A DNA stretch of 64,000 bases from Sphaerolaimus hirsutus (taxonomy: Eukaryota; Nematoda; Chromadorea; Monhysterida; Sphaerolaimidae), in contig OZ038451.1 of the NCBI GenBank assembly GCA_964036195.1, positions 8,312,529 to 8,376,528 of the forward strand. Direction: 5' to 3'. The notes beneath the pieces were generated by a model. It saw only the letters and a list, made by a program, of their open reading frames with translations. It did no database searches and was not told where the DNA came from. A program made the position numbers and the translations under genes. The stretch's first letter is position 1. Every line of letters starts with the position of its first letter. Positions 1,357 through 31,912 of this stretch are shown here, in pieces.

Positions 1357-1432
1357 TGGCTCCCAATGTGGGGCTCGAACCCACGACCCTTGGATTAAGA
1401 GTCCAATGCTCTACCGACTGAGCGAACCGGAA
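1357..1432 (-). tRNA. Antisense full-length tRNA-Lys(CTT) copy at the primer-binding site
   Basis: Read on the minus strand, these 76 bases form a complete cloverleaf: a 7-bp acceptor stem (three G-U pairs), a GCTC/GAGC D stem, a TTGGA/TCCAA anticodon stem with loop CTCTTAA (anticodon CTT), a GTGGG/CCCAC T stem with loop TTCGAGC, discriminator G, and CCA. Eukaryotic nuclear tRNA genes do not encode CCA, so this looks like a reverse-transcribed mature tRNA. It starts with TGG two bases after the LTR, exactly where a primer-binding site belongs. Normal primer sites copy only about 18 nt, up to a modified base in the T loop. The B box is intact but no T-run terminator follows, so expression as a tRNA gene is doubtful. 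Confidence 0.9.
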
Positions 1433-1856
1433 AACCTATTTTTCCGCTAGAAAGTCCTATTTCCTACCCCATTTTTCCCCTAAAAAACCCCCCACAAGCA
1501 GCTTGCTGAGGACGTGACCGCTAGGGCGTCTCGACGAGCTCCAACGCAACGGCTGGAGGCTTCACCAGCAGCTGGAAAAAAACGCAGGAAAGTTTACCGA
1601 AAGTGTGCGGCGGCACAATAAAATGCGCGTCGCCGTGTACGGTTTCATATGGGTAAAGTTTCGATGACGTTCGAATGGAGGGAGTGGTAAAATTGTAGGT
1701 TCTAAAGGAACCGTTTTTGCCTTCAAAAAAAACTACTCAATGAAGCGAGAAAGTACGCTGAGTATTTTCAACGGACGTGACACTCTGCACTGCACTCATT
1801 TCCGTCTGGGATGACATTTGATGCACTTTACAAGAGTGCGAGTTGACCAGAAAAGG

Positions 1857-2068
1857 GTCTACACACGCTAGTTGACATCGCGAATTCGTGTCAACTCAAT
1901 TGTCAACTAAGTATTACAAATAGGTTGCTCAAATACTCACGCTTAACAAAAACGATGAACATTTGAGCGTCCTAAAATCTGCTCGACGAGATATTTTGGA
2001 AAGTGGAATTGACATAGTTGCTAAATTTTAGTTGACACGAAGTCGGTGGACTTCCAGCATGTGTAGAG
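1857..2068. repeat. Degenerate GTTGACAT foldback (family A)
   Basis: The left end reads ACACACGCTAGTTGACAT. The right end carries GTTGACAC and a degraded GCATGTGTAGAG. Better-preserved copies lie in the host DNA at 27628-27790 and 38698-38862. The copy sits inside the retrotransposon leader. Confidence 0.6.
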
Positions 2069-2109
2069 CCTCATGCCCTCGTTCCAATCAAACCCCCCCC
2101 CAAACACTC

Positions 2110-2345
2110 AGCAACGTCGCTGGACGTGTCGGCCGCCGCTACGCGAAGGGCGACAACGGCCCCGGCAAGGGCGAGGCCGCGCGCCGGCGACAACGAGCGC
2201 GCCCACGCCGTTCCGGCCCCAACGTCGGGTCGGCAACATCGGTGGGCGCCCGCTGCCGCATGGCCCTCAACTCCAAACGTGCCGCGGCGGCGGCGAGTCG
2301 GCCGCCAGCGCGGCGCCAACGTCACCTGCATCACAGGGGGTTGAC
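2110..2345 (+). other. GC-rich exon-like island in the leader
   Basis: This GC-rich block stands out from its AT-rich surroundings. It follows a C-rich tract ending in a CAG and stays open in more than one frame, giving Ala/Pro/Arg/Gly-rich translations without a recognisable domain. It may be a captured host exon or a GC-rich repeat. No function is assigned. Confidence 0.3.
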
Positions 2346-3689
2346 GCTTTTGTAGATTGTTTGATTTTTTCGGGGCGCGGTTTTGTTGGCACGGCGCGAG
2401 CACGTACTGGTCGTGCTGCGCCCAAAAGTGTGGAAAGTGCCCCAATGGTACCCTTTTCAAAAAGTATACGTCATGTAAAATATTTTCCAAATGTCAAATA
2501 TTTCAACGTACTTCCCCTATGAAATAATCCGGGAGCCGAATTCCCTCTGAAAATGCTCCAAGTACGGTCACAGAAAATAAAATGTACTTTATTCTCAGAG
2601 TTACGGTAGACGCTTTATTAAGCGTCAACTGAATAATCAAATAGTGAGTTCCCTATTCCTAGTTCAGTTTTCTAAAGTTCTGAAAGAATAATTAGCCCTT
2701 TAGAATATTTGAAAAACAATTCCCAATTGATTCACGGCAAAACGTTTTTTCCCGTTACTCCATGTGAATAAATAAAATGTGTTTTTATTCAGGAATTTAC
2801 GGTGATATTTTAGGTAGAAGTACTGTGGTTTCCCGTACCCCCATTTACGAGAATTCTGGCGAAATAATACCCCCTTGAATAACTTCCCCCCTTGGAAAAC
2901 GATTTTCCCCTGAAACTTATTCCGGCCCGGGCGAAACGTATTTACGTGCCCGCCAAGTAAAAAGTAAATACTTTGGGCACCCAAAACAAAATCTGAATTG
3001 ACATGGAGACCAGTTGACACCCAGCGTGTGTGGCGCCGGGTCAACTCGGCGCCAAAACTTCGTTTACAGTTATTTAAGGTGAAAGGTCGATTTTCTAGAT
3101 TGAAATTTGACATGTGAAAATCATCGACATGTGCGCTGGCGAGATGTGACCCCCCAATCGAACCCCTTGTCCACGTCACTTCACTTGACACAACTCACCA
3201 AGTTGCAGATATCCACGGCGACCGAATCTCGGAGGCGCTGCTCTGCTCGAACCGCAGCGCCACTTGCCGTCGCCAGCGGAACGCGGCAGAATTTCACGGC
3301 GCCCGGACGATCAGGACGCCGCGACGATCGGCCGCGTCGCGCCCTGCGACGCAGAGAAGTTCTCTTTTAATATTTGTGAAGTTGGGTAGTTGTGAGTGGA
3401 AGGGATTAAGCGCCGCGGCGCGCTCAATTGGCAAGAGGGGGCGCACGGCCCAGTGCGCAGAGTTGTCAAAAGTACCAAACTTTTCAAGTATACGTATTTT
3501 AGGCATAAAGTTTGCACCATTTCCGGTTCACAACTTTACTAAGTTACCCCCCCCCTTTTTAACATTCATAACTTTTGACATAAATATGGTAAAATGTTCA
3601 AGTATTTACCTACTCCCCTCGAATAATATTGACCTATTTTAGCTATTTTTGGAGCTATCACCTCGGAAATGACATTTTATATTTATTTG

Positions 3690-4028
3690 TCATTTGGGGA
3701 CTTCCGCTCCAAAAGTTATCGCTCGCGAAGAGCTGGCCAGATTTCCCACACAAAAAAAAAATGAAGTTTCATTTCCAAATTTAGTTTGCTCTATAAATCG
3801 AGTACGGGTACGAATATAGATCCGAAAATTTCGGTTTGTGTACTTCTCGAAAAGGGCTTCTCAGTGGTGTGACTGGTTTTGCCCTGCGATGCACCGTTAG
3901 GAAGTTATTTACATTTCAATTTTAAATTTTCAAATTTACTCCTTATTTTGGGTGGTTTACCAAATACGACATAACTCCCAAAATATTTACCAGCCGACAA
4001 AACTTAGGAATGAAAGTCCCCGTTTCAT
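3690..4028. repeat. Foldback with GGGGACTTCC ends (family D), short copy
   Basis: It starts with GGGGACTTCCGCTCCAAAAG and ends in GGAATGAAAGTCCCC. The interior is closely similar to part of the longer copy at 31117-31912 in the CRAL-TRIO gene intron. The same repeat inside and outside the retrotransposon suggests later host insertion or capture. Confidence 0.7.
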
Positions 4029-4491
4029 TGCACATTTCTGGTGCCCGTCGACCTTTATTCTCGACGGTACACATCTAATTAGTATACAAACATAGTTGAA
4101 ATTTCCTATGTTTTTCTAAATTAGCCCTATTTTGAGACTTGAGCGTAAATGCTCGTCCGCGGTAGATTTCGGAACCGCCCAAATAATTAGAAGCCCTTTA
4201 GGCTGAGTTGACATCAAGTCAACTATATATTTGTGAGTTCACGCTTTCGAGTGAAAGTAAATACTTTTACAGCTCTGTAAACTGACCCGGCGCCAGAACT
4301 ATGGGCTAAACTAAAAAGTTCAAAATGAGTATTTTTGCTGAACTTTTACGCGCTGGAATGAGAAAGTGAAAAGGTGCCAAAATGGGTATTTTGTGACATT
4401 TTATTCAGAGGGGTTATGGTCGGTTTCCATACTAAGTGTGATGTCCGCCAAGTACAGCGTCCAAACCCGCTGACGCTGAATGTAAAAATGG

Positions 4492-4705
4492 GCCCATACA
4501 CGCTAGTTTACATCACAGATTTGTGTCAACTCGGTGTCAACTAAATAACACAAAATTTGTAAAATGCTTCACACTTTTCGTGAATTGAAAGTGAAGCGTC
4601 AGAGGGTACAATAGTTACCGTACTTTCAAAATTTAGTTAAAATCTTTTGATTGACTAAAATTTAGTTGGCACAAATTCAGTTGACAGTCAGCGTGTGTGG
4701 CACCA
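4492..4705. repeat. Degenerate GTTGACAT foldback (family A)
   Basis: The left end is GGGCCCATACACGCTAG and the right end carries GTTGACAGTCAGCGTGTGTG. The interior resembles the copy at 1857-2068 more than the host copies at 27.6 and 38.7 kb, so it probably belongs to a subfamily. Confidence 0.6.
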
Positions 4706-5739
4706 AGTGAGAAATTCCGCCCTGGAAGTTCATGCCTCCAAAGCGGAAATGTATTATTAGAAATGTACGTCCGGGACCGATTTTCGATGTTGTTTTCACA
4801 CTCAACTCAATCTTAGGATTTTGGGAGTCCTCAACTTTGAGAAATGGACCCCTGGAGTGTCATTCAGAAATACATTGAGAGTAATGCACTCGCTTGAATA
4901 ACTCCCCCCTCCCCTTTAAAATACGGTCCGTCCGAGACACTTTATTTAGGAAATATCTCCCAGATTTAAGTCTCTGTATTTCCAGTGAATAAAGTGACAT
5001 GGAAACTTCAAGTGTCAAGTTCACTCCTAGAGAAAAATGTGAAGCTAGAGTTGTTAAAGTACTGAACTTTCTCAAAATAAATACATGTAAATGTATTTAC
5101 CCAGTACTTAAGTTTTGAACTTTTCAAGTAGAAGTTAAGTCTTGTGAAATTCAAATTTCCTTTATTCAATGATTTAATTACCCAATTGACGTGAGATGTA
5201 CGTCACCCTTTTCCATTCCAAGGGAATTGTTTAGGACCCCGTTTTTCAACAAAAATACCTTTCCAAGGTCCACTCGGAATTGACGTCAGGTGCAGGAAAT
5301 TTTGATGTACCTAGTCTTTTCAGCTGAATTATGGCTAAAATTGAGTTTTCTAGCAAAATTCTGAATTTTCACTGGAGGTATGAACTTCCAGAGTGGAGGT
5401 TCAACTGCTCACCCAAGTGTGCTTGGCAACAATGCACTAGGCACATGTACTCACGTACCGTACTCACCTATAACCCTGCCCAAAATCTCTCAGCTTTCGT
5501 GTTGGCAAGGCGCCAACTTTTGGCACCTGCCACTGCTCTTCGTTATCGCTTCTGCAGCATCACCGGAAGGCAGCTGCAAGGAAAGGAAGGAATTGAGGAA
5601 GGATAGGAAAGGGATCCAGAAAAACCGGTGGGCTATTCTAGGTTACCTTAAGGAGTTCTTTCATGTAGGGTTGGGATGATTCAGGAAATTTTAATTTAGG
5701 TTATAACTTGATATTTTTGTTAAAATTAGGAACCATACT

Positions 5740-6060
5740 GTTTTCTCTCGTGGTCCGAACCAAACACAGAACAATTTACAAAAGTAGTGACACAGAAAAC
5801 AGTATAAATTAATATTGTTGGGTAAAGTTCTGTTAGGTTAAAATTTCTGATAAAACAGGACACGTTCTCGTTGTCCGAGCTGAACAGGACATCAGGACAA
5901 TAAAATGATAAAATTCTGTAATGCCTCTCGTTGTCCGAGCTGAACAGGAGGTGTTCCAAAAGTAATAGGACAATGGGACAGTAAAGAAATGATAAAATAC
6001 TTGAAACAGGAACCTGCCGTAGTCCGGGCTGAACACAGGAGGTGTTCAAAAAGTGGTGGG
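5740..6060. repeat. Imperfect tandem repeat, about four units
   Basis: Units carry TCTCGTTGTCCGAGCTGAAC or a near variant (about 5744, 5866, 5926 and 6018), followed by GACA/ACAGT-rich spacers. The minus strand gives several weak overlapping ORFs that come from the repeat and are not believed to be genes. Confidence 0.6.
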
Positions 6061-7642
6061 ACAGCAGTTTTTGCTAAAAAAACAGTACAAAACAAATTTG
6101 TATAGGAATAAATCTTAGGAATAAATTTGGGGGTTGGTTCCATAAATAGTGGGACACCCCTCGGAAACTTTGGCAAATGCCACTCCAGAAACTTCACTTC
6201 AAGATGTTAAGTAGTTTCTTTTCACACAGTTTCCCAAAAGCTCACATACAGATAACTGACCTCAACTGCAGCTGTAGACCACTTCAGCATGCCTGATCAC
6301 CATGCAGACCTGGATACAGGGAGAACAGTGGGCCAGGGGTATTTTCATCTGTTTTGGGTTCTGTGTTTCTTTCTTTCATATTGTTTTGCAATCTTGAAAC
6401 TATCCTGCTGTCTTTGGTATCCAATTCTTGCTATTTGTATCCATTTATTGTGTTTGACCATTTTGATCATATTATTGCATCATACTTATTTCTATTCACA
6501 TTTACAACCTTTGCACTCTGTAAACTGTTTTTTTAGAGCCTTGTTGTATGCAATTATACCTGCCACTGTACTATTACTGCTGCTTAAGCACCTAGTGGGA
6601 CAACTTTAGCTGCAACAAGGATTCAGACAAGTTCCCCATAGCCCTACTTAACAGTTGTGTTGGTGCAGTTTGAACCATGACCTTGAAACTTTCTTAACTG
6701 ACTTTTAACTGTGTTGTTGCTTGATATTTGAAGGGTTTACACATGTTGTACACTGTACAAGCACTGTGCCTCCATTCTATTATTGCAGTTAGCCCAGTTA
6801 ATTAGTCCAGCTTCCCCAGATGGCAGTTTTCCTAATGGGACATTCACAAACACAAAAATTGACTATCTGAGTCAAAGAAAAGAATTCTGGTTTTGACTTC
6901 TATGCTCCCCTTCTACCCATAGGCCTGGAAAACAAAAAGCCTCTTGGGAAGCTAAAACAATCCAGAAATGTTCTCTTTTGTGCTGATGTTAGCTTCTGGC
7001 AGTTCCAGAAGCGGCGGGGAAACAAAAGCGGCTTTGTATCACGTGTGAGAGACGTGTACCCGCGATTGGAACATCACGCTAGCACCCCGCTAATGCTGCT
7101 ACATACCTTGGTGGGAGGAGTGTGCTTATGTAGCTGAGTTCTAGCACCAGTAGCCTATGAATCCCCTAGGTACTGATAACCCACCCACATATATTTGGTT
7201 AGCCTGTGATTGACGCACCGAACAAATGGGCAAGCCCGCTTTTCCCCTTGTAGCTGGCAAGGTGAGGACCTCTCAGTTATGTCATAGCACAGGTGCGTCC
7301 GCTGCTGAGAGAAGCAAAAAACGCTAGGTTACCTGCTACACTTAATATGTGTGTTAGCCCCACTGAATTTGAGTAAGTGCCTGAAGCCTTGCAGTGGCTT
7401 TAGAAGGGCTGGGAAAGTTACAGCCACTCTCCCTACTACTGCTGTGTTATTGTTACCCTTTTGCACTGGGGATTTGCAAACAAGGGATCCAACCAAACAA
7501 AACCCATTGTTGACTAGTGTATTCAAGAATATTTAATTCATATTGAATTGTTGTTGAATTTTGGTATTTGAATTTTGATTTTTTTTTATGAACTTTGCTT
7601 ATAGCTTATGTTTGCTGCTTCAAATTGCTTTGGTGTATTATT

Positions 7643-7860
7643 CATATGATCTGGTGACAGTTAGGATAGGGTGTCTCTGTCAGTTATCTGGCAGGACAAC
7701 CCGAACCCCAATTCACACACACAATCAAATGTCCTTACATGTTGTTGGTTTCTTCAGTTTATATGGTTTGGTGACAGTTAGGATAGGGTGTCTCTGTCAG
7801 TTATCTGGCAGGACAACCCGAACCCCAATTCACACACACACAAATGTCCTTACATGTTGT
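7643..7860. repeat. Tandem duplication, period 117 bp
   Basis: Two nearly identical copies contain GGTGACAGTTAGGATAGGGT at 7653 and 7770 and share a long common stretch ending in CTTACATGTTGT. The period is 117 bases. Open frames here are by-products of the duplication. Confidence 0.85.
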
Positions 7861-7881
7861 CCACTGGCCAATTGATATTTC

Positions 7882-7999
7882 AGATCTACACCATATAGCC
7901 ATCACAACTGCTGGAAAGCTGTACCTGACTGGAGCTCTATTCATGCTGTCAACCTTCAACAACAGGCTGATGGACAATATCACTCCAGAAACCAGATTG
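7882..7999 (+). other. Exon-like segment in the leader
   Basis: TTGATATTTCAG immediately precedes an open stretch with coding-like codon use that ends AGATTG followed by GTAATT. It would encode roughly 39 residues with no recognised domain. It could be a small spliced exon of the retrotransposon or of captured host sequence. The call rests only on splice-like borders and an open frame. Confidence 0.25.
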
Positions 8000-9708
8000 G
8001 TAATTTTGAACAAAAAAAAGAACTGAAGGTAACAGTGTCTGATGTCCTTTTTCCATGACTCAATTTGATATCAAACATATTACATCACATGTCTCACTTC
8101 ATCTATTTGCATTTAGAAAATACAAACCAAGTATTATTACCACCCTACTTATTGATGAAGCATATTAGGAGCCCCATTGGAATATTGCAACAAGTGTTTT
8201 CACCTAGCTACTAGAAACATGCCAAAAATATCATTGACGTTATTTATTAATTATTATTTAGTATTTTAACAATTATTTGATATTTTAAATGATGATCGTA
8301 TCTGGCACAGTGTTCAAAACATTTGAAAGTGTGGTACATTGAACTTGATCTAGGAGCTTTGCCCCAGCCATGAAACACCTTTGAGTTTTAAAATTTGCAT
8401 TATAGATATGTTTTATATATCTATACTTATGCAATTGCTTGCTCAAGCTATTCCCATTGATGATGTCTTAGCATTGGAAAACTATTTCCTGTAAGACTAC
8501 AATCAAGACAAAAAGACTTTACGTTTCCATTGAAAACAAAAGACTCTAAAAATTATTTCAATTTCAATAAAATTAAAAAAAAAACTTTGCAAATAACCAT
8601 GAGCTACCAATACTTAATACGTATATATATGTGTCAAGAATATCCCTTAAAATTTGGTTTCAAATAATATTTTGACAAATTTCGATTTTGATAAAAAACT
8701 TGAATTATTTTATGTCAAATTATGCCAAGAAATAGAATGCCAGACATGAAAACAACATCTAAATCCTACTTTCAAACTCAAATCTGTCATACATGAAGTT
8801 ATATCCCCAGATACAACTGCTCAAAACTTATGAAATTTCACTTGAAGTTTCACTGAACTTTGAAAATTTGTGGAAATACCCAAATGCCACCCATATAAGT
8901 AACAAAGTTTTGTTTTCCAATCTTAAATTGACCATTCAATGTTAAGCTCTCCAATCGACATTAAAGAAATTCAGTATCCACCCTGTGCCAAAATGTAAGA
9001 TCTATCTAGGATATGAGCACGAGATCAAGCGCAATGAACCACATTCGAATTGTAAAAAAAAAAATGTGCCATTTACAGACTCCCTTTTTGACATCAAATG
9101 TTTCATTCCATAAATCAACGTCGAATAAGCTTACTCTAAACTTCCAAACAAGACCAATTTTCAAGTTGTTCTACATTGATCTCAATCCATGTAATTGGCA
9201 AGTCAAGGCAAGCCAAAAATAGAATTATGTTATTAATCATGAAAAGCTATTCTATTACCAAATATTTCATGCCATTCCAAAATACCCTTAATTGTATATT
9301 AATTGAGAACACCCACAAACTGGTAAAAAAACCACTTGCAGGTCACTGCGCCAACGTGTGCTGCAAGCCAACCCACCAAGGGGTAAGAAACTGCAACCAC
9401 AAAATTCTGGACCATGAAACCATGCTTTGTTGTGCGCCTGTATAGCGCGATAACTTGTATAGCACGATAACACTCACTTGTAATAAGCTACAGAATTCAG
9501 TATCATCAAGCTAAGCAATATTTTTTTTGGCTAAATGTGTCGTGTTCAAAAGAACCACTCCAAAATTGGCACTTTAAAAACTCAGCAACAAACCCCCTTG
9601 TGTTTTCAAAATCTAGGAGAATTTGCCTAAATTACAGACAGTGTTATTGTGCTAACTGGCTACAAACAAAACCCCAGTCTACGGAGTGCGCCAGGGTACG
9701 CAAGCATG

Positions 9709-10129
9709 TAGGGTTCAAACGGTATATCATATCAAATATCAATATTGAAATTTAAAAAATATCGAATATCGAATATCGATTTCAAAAATTTTTTAAAAGA
9801 TATCCAATATCGATATCAAATATCGTTATCAAATATCTACCATTTGTCCGATATATCAAACCTGTATTGTGCCCTCAAATTTAATTTTCATTTTCAATTT
9901 TGAAATATTTATGATCGATCGGATGTGCCTATAGCATTGAGATGTAGAGCTTGCTAAAGCCACTTGCACCATTCAAAATTCAGTAAAGAAATGATTGAAA
10001 CATGTGTGCAAATACATAAAAAGACAATATGCCACTTGAAATATGCATGACTTTTCGATATTGATAGTCGATAATTTTTATTAAATTTGTTGATATCTAT
10101 ATATGATATACAATATCGTTTGAAACCTA
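9709..10129. mobile_element. MITE-like element with TAGGGTTCAAACG ends and a GATATC-rich core
   Basis: It starts TAGGGTTCAAACGGTATAT and ends ATATCGTTTGAAACCTA. Both flanks of the core consist of short ATATC/GATAT words. It is the same family as the MITE at 19448-20477. No matching 8-bp flanking duplication was found, so this copy is older or rearranged. Confidence 0.7.
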
Positions 10130-11769
10130 CTCGCGCTTACATACCAAAAACTTACGTTTTCCATCCTTGTACCATAGATATTACTTACCCAAAATACCCA
10201 ATCCCTGTGAATACAATGAGACTAGACCAGCACACTTATTATCACAATTGTGCACAGTTTTAGCATTGAAAGGGGATAATTTTGGGAAATATGTGTATCA
10301 CCAAAAATCATAAAAATCTTGTAGAATCCTCTGACCAAAATTTCAAAACAAATAAGTTCTTTTTGATCAAATAATATAGTTTTTTGAAAGGATAAAACAT
10401 AAAAATGGAAATGAATGGTAATATAAAACTTATACATATTCCAGTTTGGTACAAAAAGCATTTCTTATTATTTATACCCATGAATAGCTTGCATGATCCC
10501 GGTTTTATTATTTTCTTTACGAAAAAAAAAAAAAAAAAACTCGTGATGCATTTTCTTCCCAACCAGTTACATCCATACTACAAGGTTTCCATTTTTTAAT
10601 GTAAGCAACTCAAACCACAATATAAAAAATATAAAAAAAACTGACCACTCTGAAAATAAAACAAGAAATGTCCATGTACACCCTATTTTTCCTAAAATTT
10701 ACCTTTCAATGCTATCTATGCTACAACACCCCAAAAAACCTTACCAAAACAGTTTCCACTAAAAAATTTTTTTTTTTTTAAAATTATCTGACAACCTACA
10801 GTTTACCCAAGTTTCCACCTCTACTCCTCTTTAAACCCTGGGGTCAGGGTCATTACTGTTGAGGGGGGGGGGACGCGTGGGAGTACGAGCCCGCTGGGTA
10901 CCCGCTGGGTAGCGCGCTTGGGCGCAGTGCTTTCTTGAAGGTTATAAGGCGCGAGGGAAACCAGGGTAGTGCGCAGCGCTTTTGTGGGTAGATTAAGTTT
11001 TCTTGCATAAGTTAGGTAAGGCCGAAAGGCCAGCGCCCGAATCTCCACCCAGGTCAAGTGGAGCCTTCCGGCCTTCAGCTGGATTGGTTAATGAAAGACC
11101 GATAAGGGGTAGGAATGCTTGGGAGGGGTGCGCGCACGGGTTCACGCTTTTCATGCGTGAACCCCGTTACCATTTGCTTAAAATGTTATCTACTTCAAAA
11201 ACTTATTTTATAAACAACTTGATACGACAAGCCACGCTACCATAATTTGCGCATTTTACATGATACTTCGCAATCAAATGCTCTTCAAATCTGCAGCAAT
11301 TCATAATTCTAAGATAACTTTTCATTCTAGTGATTGTATTTTTCACCCTGTACTGCCATTAATAGTTCCGCCTCTGCTGCCAATCCTTTTTGTTTGATTC
11401 TGACCAAAACCTTTCACACTTAAACACAAAATCTATCAACATGAACCCCACTCATAGATCGAGCACAATTCTAAACTAAAATTTATCAACCAAATTTTGC
11501 AAATTCCAATTATTTAACCCGCCAAAAACTACCTCGCTTCCGACCCGCCGGCTGGACGCGATTACGCCAAAATGTCAACCGATGAAAGTATGTCAAGACA
11601 AGCTAGGTGTTTAACATGGTACACATTGTGTAGAGATCTTGCATGTTTTGTATGTATATTCCTTATCGCTGTACCTATCACGTATGTGTTGTGGAAAACT
11701 CATCTGTTGCTCAACAAACTGCCGCATTTTTGAACTTATCATTTCATAGGCAGCAACCAAGCGGCGGTG

Positions 11770-13416
11770 ATGGCTCACTCGCCTCGAGAACCAGCAGACC
11801 AAGCTGTGACCTCGAATGACAACGCGATGACTGAAGCCATTCAACTGGTCGTTTTGGCACAACAAGATCCGAAAACCCATCTCCGACCCCTACAAATCGC
11901 TTACAACACGCTGGTACATCTGCTGAGCAATCTAGTCCTGGATGAAGAGTCACGGTACCGGCTTACCGAGTGCTTCAGGGATATCAAAGTTGATACGCTC
12001 CTAAAAACGGTCGAGCTGCACGGCCAGGTGGCTACCGCAGCTGCGACGCGCATGGCTGAAGACATGTTGCGAGGCCATGTGTGCCCAACTCAACCAGCAA
12101 ATCCCAGCCATCAGGGTCCCAGTGCCCCAGAACGTGAACTGATCTTGGCACCAGTGTCGTTGGCACAACAGGTGCCCAGCCAAAACTCGTTTCCACTGGC
12201 AGGAGCAATTGAAACGCTAGCGGATGAAATACATCCACGTGCCCAAAGAGCCCCGAAAAATGCGATGGCTGCGCCACAGCCACGGCATGTCAATCCAATG
12301 CCGGTGTCACGCCCTAATCCACGAACAAATGCCATTAGCTCCATGTGCTGGAAGCTCCGCCTGGGTGCGCTACAAAAACAGGTACACGTCTTCACGGGCG
12401 AACCTGAACAATCATGGGCTATGTTCATTGAAAACTTTATCACCATGGCAAAGTCCCTACACCTTAGCGAGACTGAGATGTGTGATTGGTTGCCATCTTT
12501 CCTGACAGGCTTGGCTCTGCAGTGCTATGAAACGCTTTCGAATTTGCAAAGAACTGACTGGCCTGAACTTCAACGCGCGCTCGCTAGGCGATTCAACACC
12601 CCATTCAAGCGGAGCATGATGCAATTCGAACTTGACAGTGCACGGCAAGGCAATCTGCCAATTACCCGCTATGCCAGCCACATTCACCGCATGGTGCGCG
12701 CGCTGAACCCCACCGATACTGCGGTGCAAATTGCTCGCCGCACGGGCGAAAAGGTGTTCTGTTCAATGTCAAGCGAACTGATAGCCTTGGTGCACATGCA
12801 GTCTTTGACCCCTCCCGATGATATCCAGCTTCTCACGTCGGTCCTTGAACGACTCGAGGAATCAGCTTCACACATGAAGCATGCGGGCATGGGCTGGGCC
12901 ATTGGTGCCAACCAGGTCAATGCGTTGGCTCCAGCCATACCCACGACACAAGCCAAGTTGGATGAAGTTCCAGCTCATCAATGGAAGCTCCCATTGACGA
13001 CCAGTGTGCGACAGGTGAATTATGTATCGCAGCCAGCGACTGAAGCTCAGAAACAGCCTAATCTGCAATTTAATCGCTCCCGCGACCGCCGCATTCGCCG
13101 CAACCCCGACACCGCGTCGAAACCAAAAGAGCGGACGCCGTATCGCGAGCCGGACATTGACGACAAGCCTAAGAACCCCGCGGGTCGCAGTGGGCCACCA
13201 TCTGTGCATGCCGCTGCTAAAACGCGCGTTATACGCATGGTACAATACCAAGGCGACAAAGACGCCGAGGCCAATTCCGGTTCTGACACTGAAGGGGAAC
13301 AATACAACATCACCGCGTCAAAAAGCGACATGCCAACCATCCTGGCAATGTTGAAAGAATCCAACCCGGAGCTATTGATCGAAGAGGCATCCGATGCCTG
13401 CCCCGAGGACGCCTAA
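11770..13416 (+). CDS. gag: Gag-like structural protein
   Basis: An ORF of 548 codons starts at an ATG directly after a GTG codon at 11767. Residues about 190-360 have the look of a retrotransposon Gag capsid region. They include a FTGEPEQSW segment, then a WLPSFLTGLALQCYE segment, then a WPELQRALARRF helix, as in Gypsy Gag proteins. The C-terminal part is rich in Arg, Lys, Pro and acidic residues. No CCHC zinc knuckle was found, so RNA binding may depend on the basic stretch around residues 430-470. It is the first long ORF after the leader, followed after 157 bases by the helicase ORF in another frame. It would assemble the particle that packages the element RNA. The family call rests on pattern and position, not on a search. 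Confidence 0.85.
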   Translation: MAHSPREPADQAVTSNDNAMTEAIQLVVLAQQDPKTHLRPLQIAYNTLVHLLSNLVLDEESRYRLTECFRDIKVDTLLKTVELHGQVATAAATRMAEDMLRGHVCPTQPANPSHQGPSAPERELILAPVSLAQQVPSQNSFPLAGAIETLADEIHPRAQRAPKNAMAAPQPRHVNPMPVSRPNPRTNAISSMCWKLRLGALQKQVHVFTGEPEQSWAMFIENFITMAKSLHLSETEMCDWLPSFLTGLALQCYETLSNLQRTDWPELQRALARRFNTPFKRSMMQFELDSARQGNLPITRYASHIHRMVRALNPTDTAVQIARRTGEKVFCSMSSELIALVHMQSLTPPDDIQLLTSVLERLEESASHMKHAGMGWAIGANQVNALAPAIPTTQAKLDEVPAHQWKLPLTTSVRQVNYVSQPATEAQKQPNLQFNRSRDRRIRRNPDTASKPKERTPYREPDIDDKPKNPAGRSGPPSVHAAAKTRVIRMVQYQGDKDAEANSGSDTEGEQYNITASKSDMPTILAMLKESNPELLIEEASDACPEDA

Positions 13417-13573: not shown

Positions 13574-16500
13574 ATGCACTATACACTTGCCATTCGCACG
13601 ACCAAAAACTCTTTACGCCTCACAGACAAAGGTCCAGACCCCAAACGCCGGCGGCTAGATGAAGTAATAGCTGCCATAAAAGCACAAGGGCTCCCACGGC
13701 TTGGGGAGTCACCAGAACCACAGCTAGAATTGGACTATGACGAGTCAGACTCAGAAGAACCAGATACATCAGAGGAACCAGAAGTACCCCAAGAAGATGA
13801 TCAGAATCTGGACAAGGCACTGGAATCAGAAACTGAACCAAACATGGACACAGAATTGCTTCCTCAAACATCGAAACAGAAGCCAGAGATCGAGCTAACC
13901 ACGCCTGGAATGTGGATCCGCGGGCAACTCGTTTTGGCGGGTTATGAGACCGACATCAAGCGTCGGGCGCTTCATACAAACCCGCCGAAGCTCGATAAAA
14001 GACAGATGGCACTGGTGCCCACCCGAAACCCAACACGGGACGGCGTCCTGTATGCAGGCGAACGCATGCAGGATGGCAAGATCGCGAAAGACATGACACT
14101 ACTCCACTTAGAAATAGACCCAGACAAACTCAGAATGCTGCTGCTCAGTGTCCCATGGGAAACACTGGTAAACACCGAAGCCAGCATCATCCTCAACGAA
14201 AAAGGACAATGGACACACGTGCACATCCACGCAACCCTGGCGCAGCTGCAGCACAGGGCAGAGATGGTGCCAGATTACTATTTGGCCATAGCACAATATG
14301 GAACAGCCACTGGGTGGACAGGCTGCGAAGTCACCATCCTGACCACAATCACTGGCAAAAAGCAGGGAAAGAAAAGCCACCTTGTGTCAGAAGTGAATGC
14401 CCTAGCTGAAATTCAGATACTGGGCCAGAAACACTTCAACAAAGAAAACCAAGCGGCCAGATGCATGACGCAAGAATTCTGGATCAGTGACAAAGCAATC
14501 CCACGAGTAGTTGTCAAGAGCCTGCAGGAGAATCAGCCTCTCTTCTGGATCCCATGTGTACGTGGTGGTGGGAGACACATCAGACCCATCATCAACGGCA
14601 TAGTCAGCCTCAGAAGGATGGCAGATCTGGCCCCACACCAGCCCGGCCAGACTGCTGCCACGGCGGAAGAAATCCGAGCGATATTCCCGCGTTTTGACAT
14701 ACCGAAAGTCGTGAAGAGAGAGGGACTCACTGAACACCAGCTGACCACATTAGATGGCTTCACTGATCTAACACGTCTGGCTTTCAATCCGCACGCGCCA
14801 GCCAATGCGCCCGCGCATTCGTCCATTGAAAAAAGAGAGATACACCTAGAGTACAAATTCTGGCAAGCTTACCACTGGATTGACACCATCCTGACCACAA
14901 AGACAGAGGAAGAACAATCCGCTATCTTTGAAGCAATAATGGCTCTGTCCCACGAGACAGCCATAGCGAAACTCACACTAGCTCTGACGCGCACCAAGAA
15001 GCAGAGAACAAAATGGTCAGCCCAGGTCAGATTTATCATAGCGGATGACTACAGCTACTTGACCGGACATGTCACGGTCCAGCGCGATCCAAAGACATCA
15101 TGGTCAACCCGCACGCCAGCTAAGCTGACATTTGACAACCCCAAGCTGGAGCTGGCAGGAACCGTGACATCCATCACACCACGCAACAATGGGAAATGCC
15201 AGGAGATTGGGGTCACTATGCTGTCCAAAGCAACGGAAAGGTACTTGAGGAGCCACGACATGATGCGCACCAGCCAGGTCCGTGTTCTGGCCAGCGATCA
15301 GTCGTGGGAGGATCATGACAAGGAAATGTGGGCTATGCTGTCCTTCGCCATTCTCAACCCAAGGAAATGCAGAGCGGATATAGAAATTATGCGGGTCCTA
15401 CTGCCAAACCAACTGCGTTTGGTGAACCAGATAGAGGCGGCCGTTCAAGATCCGTATGTGTACACATACCCCACCGAGTTTCCCGAGGGAGTGAACGACC
15501 GACAACGTGCAGTGATCAAAGCCCTGCGAACAACTGAAAAGTGCATCGCCATCCGCGCCCCTGCCGGTGCGGGGAAAACTGTAACATCCCAATCAGGCTC
15601 TGAGGAGCACCTCAAATCAGGGGCATTGCGGCACCAGACAGAACCGTTGGCCACTAAGGTGCTTTTGGTCGCCTCCGACAATGGGGCGGTTGACCGAAAT
15701 GAGAATGACATCGTGCGCAAGATATGCCCAAAGGGGTGGCAACACCTGAGACTTCAAGCCACCTCACGCACCATCGAGCAGGCTGAGCGCTCCAAAGACT
15801 CCCGTCGCGCCGGAGACCGTTTTCTATCGCGTGACGAGCAAGTGCCCCCGCGCTGGTTTGAAGAGATCAAAAAGAGCAGGGAACAAAAAGAGGCTGAAAC
15901 TGCTCAGATAGATAGTGCCATCAGTAACAGATATCAGATCGTCACTGCCACCATATCCACAGCGCTCAGCAGAATCAGAGACAGCCGTTTCTCTATGCTA
16001 ATTGTAGAGGAAGCCTCGAAGGTGACAAAGCTGGAACTCTGCCAGTTGTTGTGCCTGCTCAATGCGGAGGACCAGATACAGAGGCGCTTCATTGTGGTGC
16101 TTCTCGGAGATGATCGCCAACTTTCTAGGCCGACATTATCGCACGTGCCAGCCAAGCGAATCCTGGAGACCGTTTTCAACGAGAGCGCATTGGAGCGCAT
16201 GAACGCCATATTGCGCCCAGAGGACAGACATGGACTGCGCCAGGTTTACCGGGCCTCCGCGGAACATGCCAATTTGGTGAAAAACATGATCTACTTGGGC
16301 CAACTCGAAGCGCCAGCATTGCCAGCCACCAAGGAGAGTTACATGGCGGTAAAACCACCCGGTTTTCCACTGCCATATCGAATCAGCCAGGGCAAGAAAA
16401 TCTACGTACCGGCCATCTATTGGGTGGACGTGGAGACCCAGAAAGCGGTCACAGATTCAGAGAGGGAACAAACAGTGCGTCATTGCCCAGAGACGAGGAA

Positions 16501-17041
16501 AGAGTTCAAGACCTTTATGGAAAAATGGCATCACGCGGCAGGAGATGCGGCGTTTGACGAATTAAGGGTTCTGGCCTACTACAAAGACTTTGAGAGAGAT
16601 TTTGAGAATGATGTGACAGAGCTCAAACGAAGGGGCATCACAAACCTCAGGGGCAGAGTGACCACGTGCGACATAGCCCAAGGGTCTCAGATGCCGGACA
16701 TAATGCTGGTGCCCGGTTGGAGTGCCAACACCAGATACAAACAATCGACGCAATTGACCAACATGATGCGTCTCTGCGTCGCCCTGACGCGCCAACAGAG
16801 ATCGCTGACCATTCTCGCGGACTTCGAGCCAATGTTCAAATTGTCAGAGACCACAGAGAAATGGCGCCAACTGTTCTCAATGATCCACCAGACTGGGGCA
16901 TTCATCATGCAGCCCCACCGCTACCAGAGAGCATGCACCCTGCTGAGAATTGACTATGATAAGCGCCCGCCATGCATTGTGGCACATACAGCGGCAGAAT
17001 TCTTCCGGATGAGGGACAAAGAAGTAGAGTTGAGGACTTGA
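13574..17041 (+). CDS. UPF1-like superfamily 1 helicase ORF
   Basis: This ORF of 1155 codons is intact. The C-terminal half carries the ordered SF1 helicase motifs: Walker A APAGAGKT (662-669), Walker B LIVEEAS (809-815), motif III GDDRQL (845-850), YR of motif IV (892-893), motif V around TTCDIAQG (1030-1037), and motif VI VALTRQQR (1069-1076). Spacing and wording match the UPF1/SMUBP2 branch (SF1B), which moves on RNA or DNA using ATP. The usual DE of Walker B is EE here. Residues about 480-560 may form a UPF1-like beta-barrel insert. Residues 1-120 are very acidic after a PKRRR segment that could be a nuclear signal. The middle, about 120-480, is unrecognised. Such a helicase is not a normal part of LTR retrotransposons. 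It was probably captured and may help reverse transcription of a 27 kb RNA or counter RNA decay; the role is inference. Confidence 0.9.
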   Translation: MHYTLAIRTTKNSLRLTDKGPDPKRRRLDEVIAAIKAQGLPRLGESPEPQLELDYDESDSEEPDTSEEPEVPQEDDQNLDKALESETEPNMDTELLPQTSKQKPEIELTTPGMWIRGQLVLAGYETDIKRRALHTNPPKLDKRQMALVPTRNPTRDGVLYAGERMQDGKIAKDMTLLHLEIDPDKLRMLLLSVPWETLVNTEASIILNEKGQWTHVHIHATLAQLQHRAEMVPDYYLAIAQYGTATGWTGCEVTILTTITGKKQGKKSHLVSEVNALAEIQILGQKHFNKENQAARCMTQEFWISDKAIPRVVVKSLQENQPLFWIPCVRGGGRHIRPIINGIVSLRRMADLAPHQPGQTAATAEEIRAIFPRFDIPKVVKREGLTEHQLTTLDGFTDLTRLAFNPHAPANAPAHSSIEKREIHLEYKFWQAYHWIDTILTTKTEEEQSAIFEAIMALSHETAIAKLTLALTRTKKQRTKWSAQVRFIIADDYSYLTGHVTVQRDPKTSWSTRTPAKLTFDNPKLELAGTVTSITPRNNGKCQEIGVTMLSKATERYLRSHDMMRTSQVRVLASDQSWEDHDKEMWAMLSFAILNPRKCRADIEIMRVLLPNQLRLVNQIEAAVQDPYVYTYPTEFPEGVNDRQRAVIKALRTTEKCIAIRAPAGAGKTVTSQSGSEEHLKSGALRHQTEPLATKVLLVASDNGAVDRNENDIVRKICPKGWQHLRLQATSRTIEQAERSKDSRRAGDRFLSRDEQVPPRWFEEIKKSREQKEAETAQIDSAISNRYQIVTATISTALSRIRDSRFSMLIVEEASKVTKLELCQLLCLLNAEDQIQRRFIVVLLGDDRQLSRPTLSHVPAKRILETVFNESALERMNAILRPEDRHGLRQVYRASAEHANLVKNMIYLGQLEAPALPATKESYMAVKPPGFPLPYRISQGKKIYVPAIYWVDVETQKAVTDSEREQTVRHCPETRKEFKTFMEKWHHAAGDAAFDELRVLAYYKDFERDFENDVTELKRRGITNLRGRVTTCDIAQGSQMPDIMLVPGWSANTRYKQSTQLTNMMRLCVALTRQQRSLTILADFEPMFKLSETTEKWRQLFSMIHQTGAFIMQPHRYQRACTLLRIDYDKRPPCIVAHTAAEFFRMRDKEVELRT

Positions 17042-18000: not shown

Positions 18001-19447
18001 ATGTTAGCTATCGTTCCTTTCCATGTGCGAGTTACTCAGGCACTTGTATCCTGTACTTTAGCTTTCTATTGTGTTCACATCGACGCACTGGATCCAATGA
18101 TCTGCCCGACCGATCGCCCGCCGACTGCAAACTACGATCTTCCCGCTAACACGGACTGTGACTATTCCACTACGGCCGAATTTGCCGCGCCTGGCAAATT
18201 GACGCTGCAGCTATATCGACGGAACTCCCACCAGCACGTGACAAGTGCCCATGTGTGCACCAAATGGCAGGAGGTGCATTCCCGCTATACTAATTTCGTC
18301 TACACCAGCTATGACCGCACCACATACGAGCCGATCGCTGTGACGACCGACGAATGTCGGCGTATGGTCGATTACCACCAGTGCATCACAACAAAGGACT
18401 TGCAACCATCTGGTCTGGGGCAGTGGCGCACACAACATGCATCGCCAAGACTGCCAACCCGCGGTGCCTTCCGGTGCTGCAGGACAATAACCAGAAATGT
18501 GACCCAATGCGCGGTACAACAGACTACTATCTACCGACAGCAACAACAAGGCCCTCTGCAATCCACACTGGGAATCGACATTTCCAAATGTCGCTATCGC
18601 GACAACAATTGTGTGCTACCTGATCAGCAGCTGCTGCTCTGGCAAGCCAATGCCACCACAGAATGCCGATTTGAACTGTGGAAAGAAATGGCTGGCATTA
18701 GCCTACAACGTCAGTGGATTTCCTCTGACAATCAACTAGCACTGACCTTCATGAGCCCACGTGAAATCACAGACTGTGGCGAACAGCTCTATGTCAGTGA
18801 CCAGGGATTTGCAGTCCAGACAGTTGAAATGAGTGACCATTCCATTAAGCCACTCACAAACATCACCATCATTCCTGAAGAAAGGCACACCTCAGAAGAG
18901 ATTGCCGCTCAAGCAACACTACGGCAGTTGCATGCTGACCAGACTCAGAGATTCTACTTCAGATTCCTGATGGTCAAACACTGCCAAATGCTGCGAACAC
19001 TGCACGCACTGACCATTTCGCAGTTACGTGCTGACCCAACCGAAACAGCGCGCATGCTACTACAGCACCCATACCTAGTAGCTGAGACAGTGAACAGCAT
19101 AGTGCACGTCTGGTTCTGCCAACCACTAGCAAACGGCACGTACAAGCTGCTGCCTATGGATGTAGCCTCCGGTCACTGTACAAATCACATACCGATTGAA
19201 TTCGCATCCATCGAACAAGGGCCATTCTATCTGGACACAGCCACTCTGACTGTGACCAAACAGGCCTATGACATACCATGCACGCAAGCAGATGGTCAAA
19301 TTGTCAAGGTCCACAATGCCACATGGCGCTACAATGCGGCCACCGGAGACTTGCACCCTCTGCCTGGACTGCCACACATACCCCTGCTCCATCAGAACCA
19401 GGGACAGAGAGAACCGCACCCAGGGGTCAATAGACCAATGCGGCTAC
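18001..19447 (+). CDS. Envelope-like secreted glycoprotein, interrupted by a MITE
   Basis: The ORF opens with an ATG and a hydrophobic N-terminus typical of a signal peptide (about residues 1-28). The following ectodomain has about 16 cysteines after the signal and five N-X-S/T sites (NVT, NAT, NIT, NGT, NAT). Native sequence ends at residue 482, where a MITE enters. The frame then runs through MITE sequence to a stop at 19611. The segment after the MITE, in the same frame, supplies a possible helical stretch and a membrane anchor, as in a type I viral fusion glycoprotein. The family was not identified; chuvirus-like, herpes gB-like and phlebovirus-like sources all remain open. It lies before pol, whereas retroviral env normally follows pol. 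Envelope function is inferred from topology and context. Confidence 0.65.
19440..19447. repeat. 8-bp target duplication, left copy (GCGGCTAC)
   Basis: GCGGCTAC lies directly before the MITE that starts at 19448 and is repeated exactly at 20478-20485. Eight bases is the hallmark of hAT-type transposases. Confidence 0.95.
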
Positions 19448-20477
19448 TAGGGTTCAAACGATATCACTTTTCGATATCGATATTCGATATTCGATATTTT
19501 TTCAAAATTTTCGATATCGATATTCGATATTCGATATTTTTTCAAAATTTTCGATATCGATATTCGATACGATATGGACCCTCGATATCGATATTCGATA
19601 TTCGATACTAAAAAATGGTCGATATTCGATATCGATATTTCGATATTTTCGATATTCGATATTTAGCTTTTGGTATACCTATCAAGGCATATTTCAAGCA
19701 GCATATTGTAATTTCATATGGTTGCAAACATGGTTGATTATCTCTTTACTGAAAAGTACAATTGATTTTAACAAGGTTTACAATGGTCAGAATGAGAAAA
19801 TCGAAGAAAAAACATGACGAATCAAATTGTATCAGACAAACAAAAATAGGTAGATATTACAATTCATACTTATAACCCAATTGATTAAGGGCATGTTGCA
19901 AAAAAGCAGCATATCAGCATTTTCTGGCTTCAAATTTGAGGTAGGTAGTAGGGTTCAAACGGGATCCCGATCCCGATCCCGATCCCGAAATCTCAAAAAA
20001 CCAATCCCGATCCCGATCCCGAAACCCCAATCCCGATCCCGATCCCGATCCCGAAATCTCAAAAAGTGAATCCCGATCCCGATCCCGAAAAGTCAATCCC
20101 GTTTGAACCCTAGTAGGTAGTTCAGTAGGTATGTGGCCAAGCCAAATACAAGAAATGTGGAGTAAGGACTCCAAAAAAGATGACATTAAATACTTTACTT
20201 TTACTCATCAACTTAGATACTATAAGCAAATCAAATTAATCACAAATATCTCAAAACAAAAATAATAACTTAATTAAGGACATTATACAGGTTCGATATA
20301 TCGAAAATATGGTCGATATTCGATATCGATATTCGATATTTTTTCAAAATTTTCGATATCGATATTCGATATTCGATATTTTTTCAAAATTTTCGATATC
20401 GATATTCGATATTCGATATTAAAAAATGGTCGATATCCGATATTCGATATTCGATACGATATATCGTTTGAACCCTA
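19448..20477. mobile_element. hAT-type MITE inserted in the envelope/pol frame
   Basis: The element is 1030 bp, starting TAGGGTTCAAACGATAT and ending ATATCGTTTGAACCCTA, with an exact 8-bp duplication on both sides. Both arms are built from GATATTCGATATC-type words. The middle is unique and resembles host sequence near 29180-29300. It carries no transposase. Element plus one duplication is 1038 bases, a multiple of three, so the frames on either side agree. Stops within it end the upstream ORF. A second MITE is nested at 19949-20112. Confidence 0.95.
19949..20112. mobile_element. Nested 164-bp MITE with a GATCCC-word core
   Basis: It starts TAGGGTTCAAACGGGATCCC and ends GTTTGAACCCTA. The exact 8-bp duplication GTAGGTAG lies at 19941-19948 and 20113-20120. 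It shares the 13-base end with the element it sits in, but its core is made of CCCGATCCCGA words instead of GATATC words. It must have arrived after the outer element. Confidence 0.95.
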
Positions 20478-20485
20478 GCGGCTAC

Positions 20486-23400
20486 ACCCCTTTGAAAGTT
20501 CACCAGATTGGAATGCACGTGAACAACTGATCAATGTGCTCCAGAAACATCAAGAGGTCATGGAGACTTTGGGCTTGAGGACAGGACAAACAGCAGAAGA
20601 AAATACCAGAGAAATAGCCCAAAATGTTGCGGTCACAGGCATGACTCAAGCTGGAAAGCACACATGGCTTAAATGGGCCATTGGGCTGGCAATTATCCCG
20701 TTGGCAGCAATATGGTGCTTTATCGTGGCCAAATGCTGCCTGCCCTTAGCCATACGGGCTAAGCTGACACACAATGTGCTGGATGTTGCCATCAATATCA
20801 CCAAATGGCTGTGGCAACAAGCCACCACACTAAGCAGATGCTTCAGCGCAGTCCACCGATTCCGGGAACGTCACGAAAGAACACGAAATCCCGTGACTGA
20901 AGCTGCGGTGCCTCTCACAGTCTCGGTGATGGAAGAACCACTCAGACCAAGCCGACACCAGGGGCACTTGGCAGCATTGACCCAAGGTCGAAGTGTCACC
21001 ATAAATGGCGAAACTATTGAACTCCGACCTGTCAGCATTGTCAATATGGTAAAAAGCCTGGAACCAGAAGACACTGATGAAGTGCCAATGACATCAATCA
21101 CCATCAACGGGGAATATGTCATGGCTGCCATTGATACGGGGGCTCAGTGCAGCATAATCGGAAAAATGTTAGCTGACACCCTCAGTCTGCCATATGAGCC
21201 ACAAGCAGACCAGAGACAAAGTCTGACATCCGCTACCGGACACGAAATGCCCATCACAGGGATAATCCAAGCAGAAATTGGAATGGGAGAACAATCGTGG
21301 ACCCATCGAATGCATGTTTCAGCCGAATTGGGAGACCAAGTGATACTGGGAAATGATGCGCTGCGGGCAGTTGGACAGTTGACGATCCAATACAACAACG
21401 AAGGCACCCACATCGCCACCGTGCCAGAAATGACTCAGGTCAATGCAATCAAAGCAGTAAAAATGGTGAACCAACAGGACCTGCTGTATGTAGCAGTCAA
21501 TATCGCCAACACGACTCTAGCTGCCTTGTTAGATTCAGGCGCACAGTGCTGTCTAATTGACGAGAAAATCGTGCATGATCTGGGTTTGGGCCCAATCCAA
21601 CCCCTGACAGACAATCATCGCTTGGTGTCCATCACGGGCCATGCGTTGACAATTCCCGGGCAAGTAGACATCAGGATCACGATGGCCGGAATGACCTTAC
21701 AGCAGAAATTCTTTGTGGCAAAAGAACTCAATAATGAGGTCCTTATCGGCGGAGATCTACTTCGCCGATTCCGCAGTCTGACCATCTGCTACCAAACTAG
21801 CAGAGTATGGATCGGCACAAAGCAGATTGGACTGGGTCCAACGGGTGACTCAACACCCACCGAAGGACCACCCACAACGCAGTGGCCAGTGAAGCTTGTG
21901 GAAAGGGAACTGATTCGCAGCAACACGCAAAAACGAATCCCTGTTGCTGTGGTTGGTCTCCCAAATTGCGACCCCCAGATGAACCTTGTATTCATCCCGA
22001 AATCACCACGAGAAATAAGGGGGCTACGCCTGCCATACTTCCGCGTCCCAGGCGGACATGAACTGCTCAAAATCGACATCTACAACATGTCAGCACAGCA
22101 CCGATGTCTACCAAAAGGTGAAATAATCGGACACATGGAAATTGCGGGGACGGCAATCCCACTTGCCCGGCAGACAACAGCACAGGCTGCACATGCCGTA
22201 AACCAGTTAACAAACCAAGGAACACCGAACATTGAACCAGATAAAGTAGATCTGTTGGCATTATCCGGAAAAGCCCTTGAGGGGAGACTCGAAAAACTTG
22301 AAGCTGCCTGGAAATTCGGAGACAAACTGGAACCAGAACAGAAGGAACAGATGACAGAGTTGCTACGGAAATATCACGACTGCTTCGCACTAGATTATAG
22401 CGAACTGACCACAATCACTGGTGGTATCTTCCACCGTATCCGGACACATGGCAAGCCACCAATACAGCTGCCACCACGGCGCACACCGCCACACTTGCGA
22501 GATGTGGTTGACGACGAGCTAAAATCAATGCTCAGGTCAGGTGTGATTGTCAAGTCGAATAGCCCTTGGCGCGCTGCTATTGTCATGGTCAAGAAAAAGG
22601 ACAACACACACCGCCTCTGCCAAGACTTCAGGCAACTAAATCTGATCACCGAAAGTGATGCTTTCCCAGCACCAGACCAAGCAGAGATATTTGACCGAAT
22701 AGCCGAATTGAATCCAAAATACTTTAGCAGTTTGGATTGCCTGGGAGCTTATTGGCAGCTGCCAATGCATCCAGATGACGCTGAAAAGACAGCATTTGGT
22801 GTGGCAAATGGCCAACTATATCACTTCACCAGAATGCCATTTGGCCTCAGCACAGCACCAGCATCATATGCCAGGGCAATTACGACCATATTCGAGCCAA
22901 TCATCAACAAAAGTGTCCTCGCTTACATGGATGATCTGTTGACCGCTTCTCCGACATTTGAGAAGCATCTGGCTGACCTGACTACACTACTGGATAGGGC
23001 CAGAATGTTCAGACTAAAATTTAAAGCGAAGAAATGCTCATTCGGCGTGAGCGAGTGTATCTTCCTCGGCTTTAAATTATCCGGAAAAGGATTAGAACAA
23101 GACATCCAGAAAACAAAAACAATCGAGGCTTTCCCACTGCCGCAGAACAGAACTGGCGTGAAGTCATTCCTTGGAATGTGTGGATTCTATCGCCGTTTCA
23201 TTCGGAATTATTCAATCATTGCCAAACCACTGGTTGAACTCACGAAGGACACCACAGAGTTTGAATGGACGGAAGAAAGATTGAATGCCTTTGACTCACT
23301 CAAAAAGGCAATGGTCACGGCCCCGGTGCTGGCATTCTATCGCCCAGAGCTGGACCTGATCATATCGGTTGACGCGGCCTGCCCACCAGTACATGGCTAT

Positions 23401-26088: not shown

Positions 26089-26365
26089 ATTAGGACAAAC
26101 GACACATGGTTGGACAATTGATTGTGTGAAGTGATTATTTTTAACGTATGATCAGAAGAATACATTTTTGGTGAAGGTATATACAGACATTTGTTTGTTT
26201 GTTTTTTGACATAAAAACCATCAATTGAACTAAATTTTGTCTATACTTTTACGAAAATATTAAGTCAAACAACCGCTAAGATGACGGCTTTTATGTCTTA
26301 CTCGAACGTCTATATTCGCTAATTTTACCTGTATGAGGCCATTACAGTTGACAAAAGGGGCCGAA
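26089..26365 (+). other. 3' untranslated segment with polypurine tract
   Basis: A short AT-rich stretch follows the pol stop. AAAAGGGG at 26353-26360, followed by CCGAA and then the LTR, is the likely polypurine tract that primes plus-strand DNA. The CC interruption makes it imperfect. No other gene is seen. Confidence 0.6.
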
Positions 26366-27436: not shown

Positions 27437-27441
27437 AAATT
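27437..27441. repeat. Target-site duplication, right copy (AAATT)
   Basis: Matches 278-282 and confirms that both LTRs belong to one insertion. Confidence 0.8.
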
Positions 27442-31116: not shown

Positions 31117-31912
31117 CTTCCGTTCCAAAAGTTCACAAGCGCCAAATCCAGAAAAATCGAGTTAGCTGTGGATTCGACATCCACGTATAATTCTGCCCAT
31201 TTTGGTAAAAAGATCAGTGTTATAGTCCACGTCGTTCCCGAGATACAGTGGTACCGTTTTTCAGAAAAATCACAATTTTCATATCGAAAGTGCACATATC
31301 CATCTCAGATCCCCTATGAAAAACAGAACTTTCATTTCGTAAGTGCACATATCCATGTCGGACCACCGGAGTTTCATTTCATAAGTGCACATATCCAAAA
31401 AAAATAGTTTCATTTCCAAAAGTGCACGCGTGCTCCGGATCGCTTGCGAAGAGCCGGCCGGATTTCCCATACAAAATAAAGTTTCATTTCCAAATGTGCA
31501 TACGTGAATTTCCAAATTTATTTTGCTCTATAAATCGAGTACGGGTATAAATTCAGATCTGAAAATTTAGGTTTGTGTACTTCTCAAAAACGACTTCTCA
31601 GTCGTGTAATTGGTTTTGCCCTGCGATGCACCGTTAGGTAGTTATTTACATTTCAAGTTCAAATTTTCAAATTTACTCCTTATTTTGGGTGGTTTACAAA
31701 ATATGACATAACTCCCAAAATATTTACCAGCCGACAAAATTTAGGGACACAAAAATTGTAGACAAATGTCCGACATATCTGAAAAGTGCAGGGCAAGCTT
31801 TGTCGCCCAAACATGGCACTGCCGGGCCAGCGCCAAACTTTAAAATGCGATTTTGAAAAATCAAAAAATCTGGATATGTCAACTTTTGGAATGAAAGTCC
31901 CCACGTGTCTAA
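31117..31912. mobile_element. GGGGACTTCC foldback (family D), long copy
   Basis: It starts ACGTGGGGACTTCCGTTCCA and ends GGAATGAAAGTCCCCACGTG. Its interior holds a closely similar copy of 3720-4020 from the retrotransposon leader, plus short repeats around GTGCACATATCCA. No ORF. Class unknown; flanks show no clear duplication. Confidence 0.7.

Follow-up and report, generated by a model that had tools for sequence, protein, structure and literature searches.

In the window analysed here, a whole stretch of 64,000 nucleotides, a complete tRNA-Lys(CTT) with its CCA lies antisense at the primer site of a young LTR retrotransposon that has long open frames. The sequence, its position and orientation, the CCA and the junction with the LTR can all be read from the DNA. 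The full primer complement at the primer site is a real if uncommon form of a known process, for which we infer the mechanism from one copy: judged by its sequence, the 76-nt stretch was probably copied into DNA from the mature tRNA that primes this element, fixed by read-through and then inherited.

The tRNA complement at the primer site

In the replication of LTR elements, the 3′ CCA of a tRNA primes minus-strand DNA, and the plus strand later copies approximately 18 nt of the attached tRNA before a modified base, usually m1A58, halts it. The usual primer-binding site of retroviruses is 18 nt long (PMC1785368, in part). The sequence that follows the 5′ LTR in the window comprises the following features.

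1355 to 1356, + strand: 2-nt spacer AT between the LTR and the primer site (sequence)
1357 to 1432, − strand: complete tRNA-Lys(CTT) including CCA (ARAGORN, Rfam); the + strand of the element is its full-length complement
1357 to 1374, + strand: conventional 18-nt primer-binding site within the tRNA complement (position relative to the LTR)
1375 to 1432, + strand: extra 58 nt, the complement of the remaining tRNA up to its mature 5′ end (ARAGORN, Rfam, slot check)

ARAGORN, run on the whole 64-kb window, detected this tRNA on the minus strand and no other. The Rfam tRNA model RF00005 matched 1360-1432 from its first to its last position, with a score of 58.4 bits against a cut-off of 29 (E 4.7e-10) and with no non-standard pairs marked. 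When the cloverleaf slots were checked, all 21 stem pairs were found to form, 18 as Watson-Crick pairs and 3 as G-U pairs, without a mismatch; the acceptor stem has 7 pairs (4 Watson-Crick and the 3 G-U pairs U2-G71, G5-U68 and G6-U67), the D stem 4, the anticodon stem 5 and the T stem 5. At the 3′ end, the discriminator G73 is followed by CCA at 1359-1357, and the tRNA 3′ end that corresponds to the primer site is CCCACATTGGGAG. The first-pass annotation had reported a complete tRNA-Lys(CTT) with CCA in antisense orientation, and these results confirm it with exact coordinates. Its placement of the tRNA at a primer site is borne out as well: TGG, the complement of CCA, starts at 1357, the 5′ LTR ends at 1354 (or 1355), and the LTR has a partner, a target-site duplication and pol genes to go with it.

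Two simpler readings of the sequence were rejected. A chance tRNA-like sequence is ruled out by the Rfam E value at the exact primer position, and an ordinary tRNA gene beside the element is ruled out by a location between the LTRs, an encoded CCA and the lack of a terminator close by.

The same annotation had stated that the tRNA folds perfectly, which is correct for the covariance model and less so for the energy fold. In the minimum-energy fold of the unmodified tRNA strand, the D, anticodon and T arms are kept while the acceptor end re-pairs (GGUUC with GAGCC), and the fold has an ordinary stability given the base composition (z -1.46, with 14 of 200 shuffles equally stable or more so). 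Compared with a metazoan tRNA-Lys(CTT), the sequence differs at 10 positions (1, 2, 7, 9, 28, 29, 41, 42, 66 and 72), and pairing is kept despite these differences at 1-72, 2-71, 7-66, 28-42 and 29-41; U1-A72 and C9 depart from the metazoan tRNA. Substitutions with preserved pairing give the sequence what looks like the character of a real tRNA from another lineage, which would fit a host tRNA and an element-borne one alike.

Predicted hairpins flank the tRNA complement at 1308-1345 and at 1428-1446, the latter overlapping the first bases of the tRNA, and the 148-nt region folds at z -7.03.

The element that carries the site

With the LTR read as TG...TA, the element spans 283-27436, that is, 27,154 bp. 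Its main features are as follows.

278 to 282, no strand assigned: target-site duplication AAATT, 5′ side (partner 27437-27441)
283 to 1354, + strand: 5′ LTR, TG...TA, 1072 bp (repeat alignment, running to 1355)
1197, + strand: AATAAA in the 5′ LTR (sequence search)
1344 to 1353, + strand: U5 end GGCCCCTTTT, a 10-nt complement of the polypurine tract (reached by 2 of 5000 shuffles)
11734 to 13416, + strand: gag frame, stop to stop, with Retrotrans_gag (Pfam PF03732, E 5.9e-07, scanned from 11767)
13574 to 17041, + strand: superfamily 1-type helicase ORF, 1155 aa (Pfam AAA_30, AAA_11, AAA_12 and AAA_19)
18001 to 19611, + strand: unclassified ORF with 18 Cys and 5 NxS/T sites, its tail encoded by TCGATATT repeats
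20536 to 26088, + strand: pol frame with two aspartic protease domains, RT, RNase H and integrase (Pfam; DTGA, DSGA, YMDD)
26353 to 26362, + strand: polypurine tract AAAAGGGGCC, 3 nt upstream of the 3′ LTR (sequence)
26366 to 27436, + strand: 3′ LTR (repeat alignment)
27437 to 27441, no strand assigned: target-site duplication AAATT, 3′ side (partner 278-282)

The direct repeats 283-1355 and 26366-27437 are identical at 1069 of 1073 positions, with 3 mismatches and 1 gap. The divergence between the LTRs is 0.28%, and the insertion is young, given this near-identity. The target-site duplication can be read equally well as 4-bp AATT with an LTR that is one base longer.

Two LTRs and a target-site duplication are present, the primer site adjoins the 5′ LTR and the polypurine tract adjoins the 3′ LTR, and the Pfam matches follow the order protease-RT-RNase H-integrase. 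The RT-RNase H part is 28-41% identical to the matches listed (120 of 6143), several of which are named as retrotransposon or Ty3-gypsy proteins. By its domain order and RT-RNase H similarity, the element is a Ty3/Gypsy-type LTR retrotransposon.

The U5 end and the polypurine tract were compared with internal 25-nt windows as a control; 5 of 4982 windows matched U5 equally well and 0 of 4982 matched the tract. It is possible from the two sequences that pairing of GGCCCCTTTT with AAAAGGGGCC could circularise the 27-kb genomic RNA.

The four long open frames are gag, the helicase ORF, the unclassified ORF and pol. Our protein searches were limited to the candidates with the most words in common with the query, so that relatives can be missed, and at E <= 0.001 they gave no relative of gag among 7996 candidates scored and none of the helicase ORF among 7992; the helicase ORF also had no PDB match at E <= 0.001. 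Its motifs are a Walker A-like APAGAGKT, recognised by eye and without a match to a stricter pattern, together with EEAS and GDDRQ. In this Gypsy-type element, the helicase ORF, of SF1 type, stands between gag and pol. The unclassified ORF at 18001-19611 has no Pfam family above the cut-off and no strongly hydrophobic 19-aa stretch, and its single match in PDB, at E 0.22, was taken as chance. Within 18001-20535, this Cys-rich ORF terminates inside the TCGATATT array, and the pol frame starts just past the array.

The Pfam matches in pol cover residues 187-277 (protease), 685-848 (RT), 911-1044 (RNase H) and 1216-1387 (integrase). The aspartic proteases are arranged in tandem, at residues 187-277 and 313-414 of the scanned ORF, with DTGA and DSGA, and residues ~63-94 of the stop-to-stop pol frame are strongly hydrophobic. 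The leader between the primer site and gag, 1433-11733, is ~10.3 kb long and contains dispersed repeats in common with the flank; one of these, at 3718-4008, is 85% identical to 31439-31745 in the flank.

Origin and maintenance of the full-length site

If plus-strand synthesis copied the mature primer, this one event would predict each of four features, namely an antisense orientation, a CCA, an exact junction and a match of full extent. The orientation would be due to the tRNA having served as the template of the plus strand. Nuclear tRNA genes usually lack CCA, and its presence therefore points to a mature tRNA as this template. The spacer of only 2 nt between the CCA and the LTR is what covalent continuity of the primer with minus-strand DNA predicts, and the match extends to the first nucleotide of the tRNA, its mature 5′ end. 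Copying of the whole primer had been proposed in the first-pass annotation, with maintained full-length pairing as the alternative, and it is the best account of orientation, CCA, junction and full length, with the mechanism drawn from a single copy. We infer that a read-through event was followed by inheritance and, perhaps, by self-perpetuation of the site: in some ancestor, plus-strand synthesis would have passed the usual stop and reached the 5′ end of the tRNA, the over-extended plus strand would have become joined to the leader, and genomic RNA would thereafter have carried and passed on the whole tRNA complement.

Studies of HIV bear on how such a product could arise and become fixed. 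On unmodified tRNA-Lys produced in vitro, HIV RT proceeds to the 5′ end of the template, whereas native tRNA stops the enzyme mainly at m1A58 (PMC13191261, in part). According to the same part of that source, the only functional products in HIV are those ending at m1A58, U54 or psi55; the fixing step of read-through is therefore not a simple one. With an A58U primer, HIV is described as replicating like wild type and its proviruses as being without extra tRNA sequence, on data not shown there (PMC1785368, in part), so that loss of m1A58 alone need not yield captured read-through. The 76-nt copy bears no misreading scar at A58 or A37, two known stop positions, and either an under-modified tRNA or an accurate bypass must therefore be assumed. 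The departures U1-A72 and C9 and the re-paired acceptor end of the energy fold also count against the read-through account.

Once captured, a full-length site could perpetuate itself, since products of any length would be transferable. If genomic RNA carries the full complement, the minus-strand DNA made from it would end in the entire tRNA sequence, and plus strands of 18 nt, of 76 nt or of any length between would all match the minus strand and transfer. Over-extension would no longer do harm, and synthesis that reached nucleotide 1 would rewrite the whole 76-nt site from the host tRNA. We regard it as possible, with some doubt, that the full site is renewed from the host tRNA in each cycle. 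We are equally tentative about the broader proposal of a giant Gypsy lineage that keeps a whole-tRNA primer site, uses read-through as its productive route of transfer, needs no stop at m1A58 and has its site rewritten in each cycle from host tRNA-Lys. In Ty1 and Ty3, the PBS is stated never to be renewed from the tRNA (PMC5371799, in part), which weighs against renewal in an element of Ty3/Gypsy type. The intact 76 nt gives no evidence of constraint, because the insertion is too young: with LTRs 0.28% apart, 0.081 changes are expected in the distal 58 nt since insertion.

The distal 58 nt might instead be confined to this copy, or to a small recent lineage, as a functionless product of aberrant plus-strand synthesis that repair had built into the leader. 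Over-extension does occur with an under-modified primer (PMC13191261, in part), PBS sequence after an unprocessed U5 end in HIV 2-LTR junctions is reported as the mark of an aberrant product (PMC5618025, in part), and an insertion too young to show constraint, with the 0.081 changes expected in 58 nt, would suit such an accident. We nevertheless consider it unlikely, as the rest of the element looks functional, with open gag, helicase and pol frames, near-identical LTRs and a polypurine tract, and the event and the single sampled copy would need to coincide. An explanation that we judge improbable is that the minus-strand tRNA is an element-borne primer gene, transcribed by Pol III through its internal promoter, which would make each copy of the element independent of the host tRNA pool. 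Primer and site would then be the two strands of one stretch and their match automatic; the B box GGTTCGAGCCC is intact, the cloverleaf is complete, and pairs 1-72, 7-66, 28-42 and 29-41 are compensated relative to the metazoan tRNA-Lys. Looked at as a nuclear tRNA gene, however, the sequence has its B box together with an A box that departs at C9 and no nearby Pol III terminator, the first TTTT on the transcribed strand lying 102 nt past the tRNA; the acceptor end is re-paired in the minimum-energy fold, and a correct 3′ end is unlikely because tRNase Z is normally prevented from trimming the 3′ end of transcripts in which CCA is encoded. Least credible of all, to the point of being barely worth entertaining, is the capture of a chromosomal tRNA gene or tRNA-derived SINE next to the LTR by recombination, without reverse transcription. 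Sequences derived from tRNA-Lys are common mobile material, but such a capture explains neither the encoded CCA nor a junction 2 nt from the LTR, and the orientation is the right one for a primer complement, with no adjacent Pol III terminator.

If the site did arise by read-through of the primer, it would bear on a general rule of plus-strand transfer. Halting of the plus strand within the primer tRNA is considered important for this transfer, and long over-extension unproductive (PMC13191261 and PMC1785368, both in part). An element that combines long open frames with a full-length complement would be a natural exception to this rule, and it would allow a direct genomic test of whether Gypsy elements, unlike Ty1 and Ty3, can renew the primer site from the tRNA. 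The 76 nt would then be a DNA record of the host tRNA at the time of capture; if rewriting in each cycle is true, the primer site would track the evolution of the host tRNA.

Further copies, precedents and related systems

No second copy of the primer site was found in the 64-kb window, in which 1341-1450 otherwise matches only 15 nt of the 3′ LTR end, and the repeats common to the leader and the downstream flank exclude the primer site. Searches for Pol relatives in viral_contigs gave 9 and 127 pattern matches, of which 0 were confirmed, and exact patterns of the tRNA 3′ end had 0 matches in viral_contigs and 0 in genome_contigs. By Pol alignment, prokaryote assemblies in genome_contigs yielded 26 Gypsy-like loci; we take most of these, or all of them, for eukaryotic contamination. 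One of them (L026), a match of <100 residues in a long bacterial contig, was left out of the locus scans. At the other 25, ARAGORN found 0 tRNAs and the LTR script no usable junction of a 5′ LTR with a primer site; the script's two repeats (L007 and L008) each lay at a contig end and had no primer site after them, and the 25 loci give no base rate for full-length primer sites. Among the titles and abstract starts listed in a literature search, with subscription journals mostly outside its coverage, none describes a primer site made of a complete tRNA or read-through into the primer. Three strings from the window did not occur in a literature text search, in which a metazoan tRNA-Lys site string does occur, in 6 papers.

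A primer over-extension sequence was reportedly described by Muthuswami et al. in 2002. Such a sequence follows the PBS in many HIV strains, other lentiviruses and spumaviruses, and lets slightly over-extended products transfer (PMC13191261, in part). In the present element, the primer-complementary sequence directly downstream of the PBS amounts to 58 nt (1375-1432), with the primer identified from the site itself. The over-extension sequence of lentiviruses and spumaviruses is described as serving products that end at psi55, a few nt past m1A58, whereas the complement found here covers all 76 nt. By functional analogy, the site would be the over-extension principle taken to the full length of the tRNA.

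The element resembles Ty3/Gypsy elements primed by tRNA-Lys in its RT-RNase H-integrase order, its gag, polypurine tract, LTRs and 4-5 bp duplication, and in having a tRNA-Lys primer site that adjoins the LTR. It differs from them in the 76-nt primer site, which is usually ~12-18 nt there, in its 27-kb size and in the helicase ORF. The planarian Burro giants are comparable in scale, with an internal region of up to 25 kb, a total of >30 kb, a Gypsy-type pol and other extra domains (PMC6431247, in part). Compared by description only, these extras are MATH, BIR, ankyrin, BCL2-like and midasin-like domains and an env-like region, with no SF1 helicase ORF in the part of the source available (PMC6431247); the terms 'tRNA' and 'primer binding' are absent from the main text of that paper (PMC6431247). 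The bipartite or extended contacts of Ty1 and Ty3 likewise involve pairing between primer and genome beyond the acceptor end. Their contacts are short separate boxes, ~4800 nt apart in Ty3 (PMC5371799, in part), whereas the element in the window has one continuous full-length complement.
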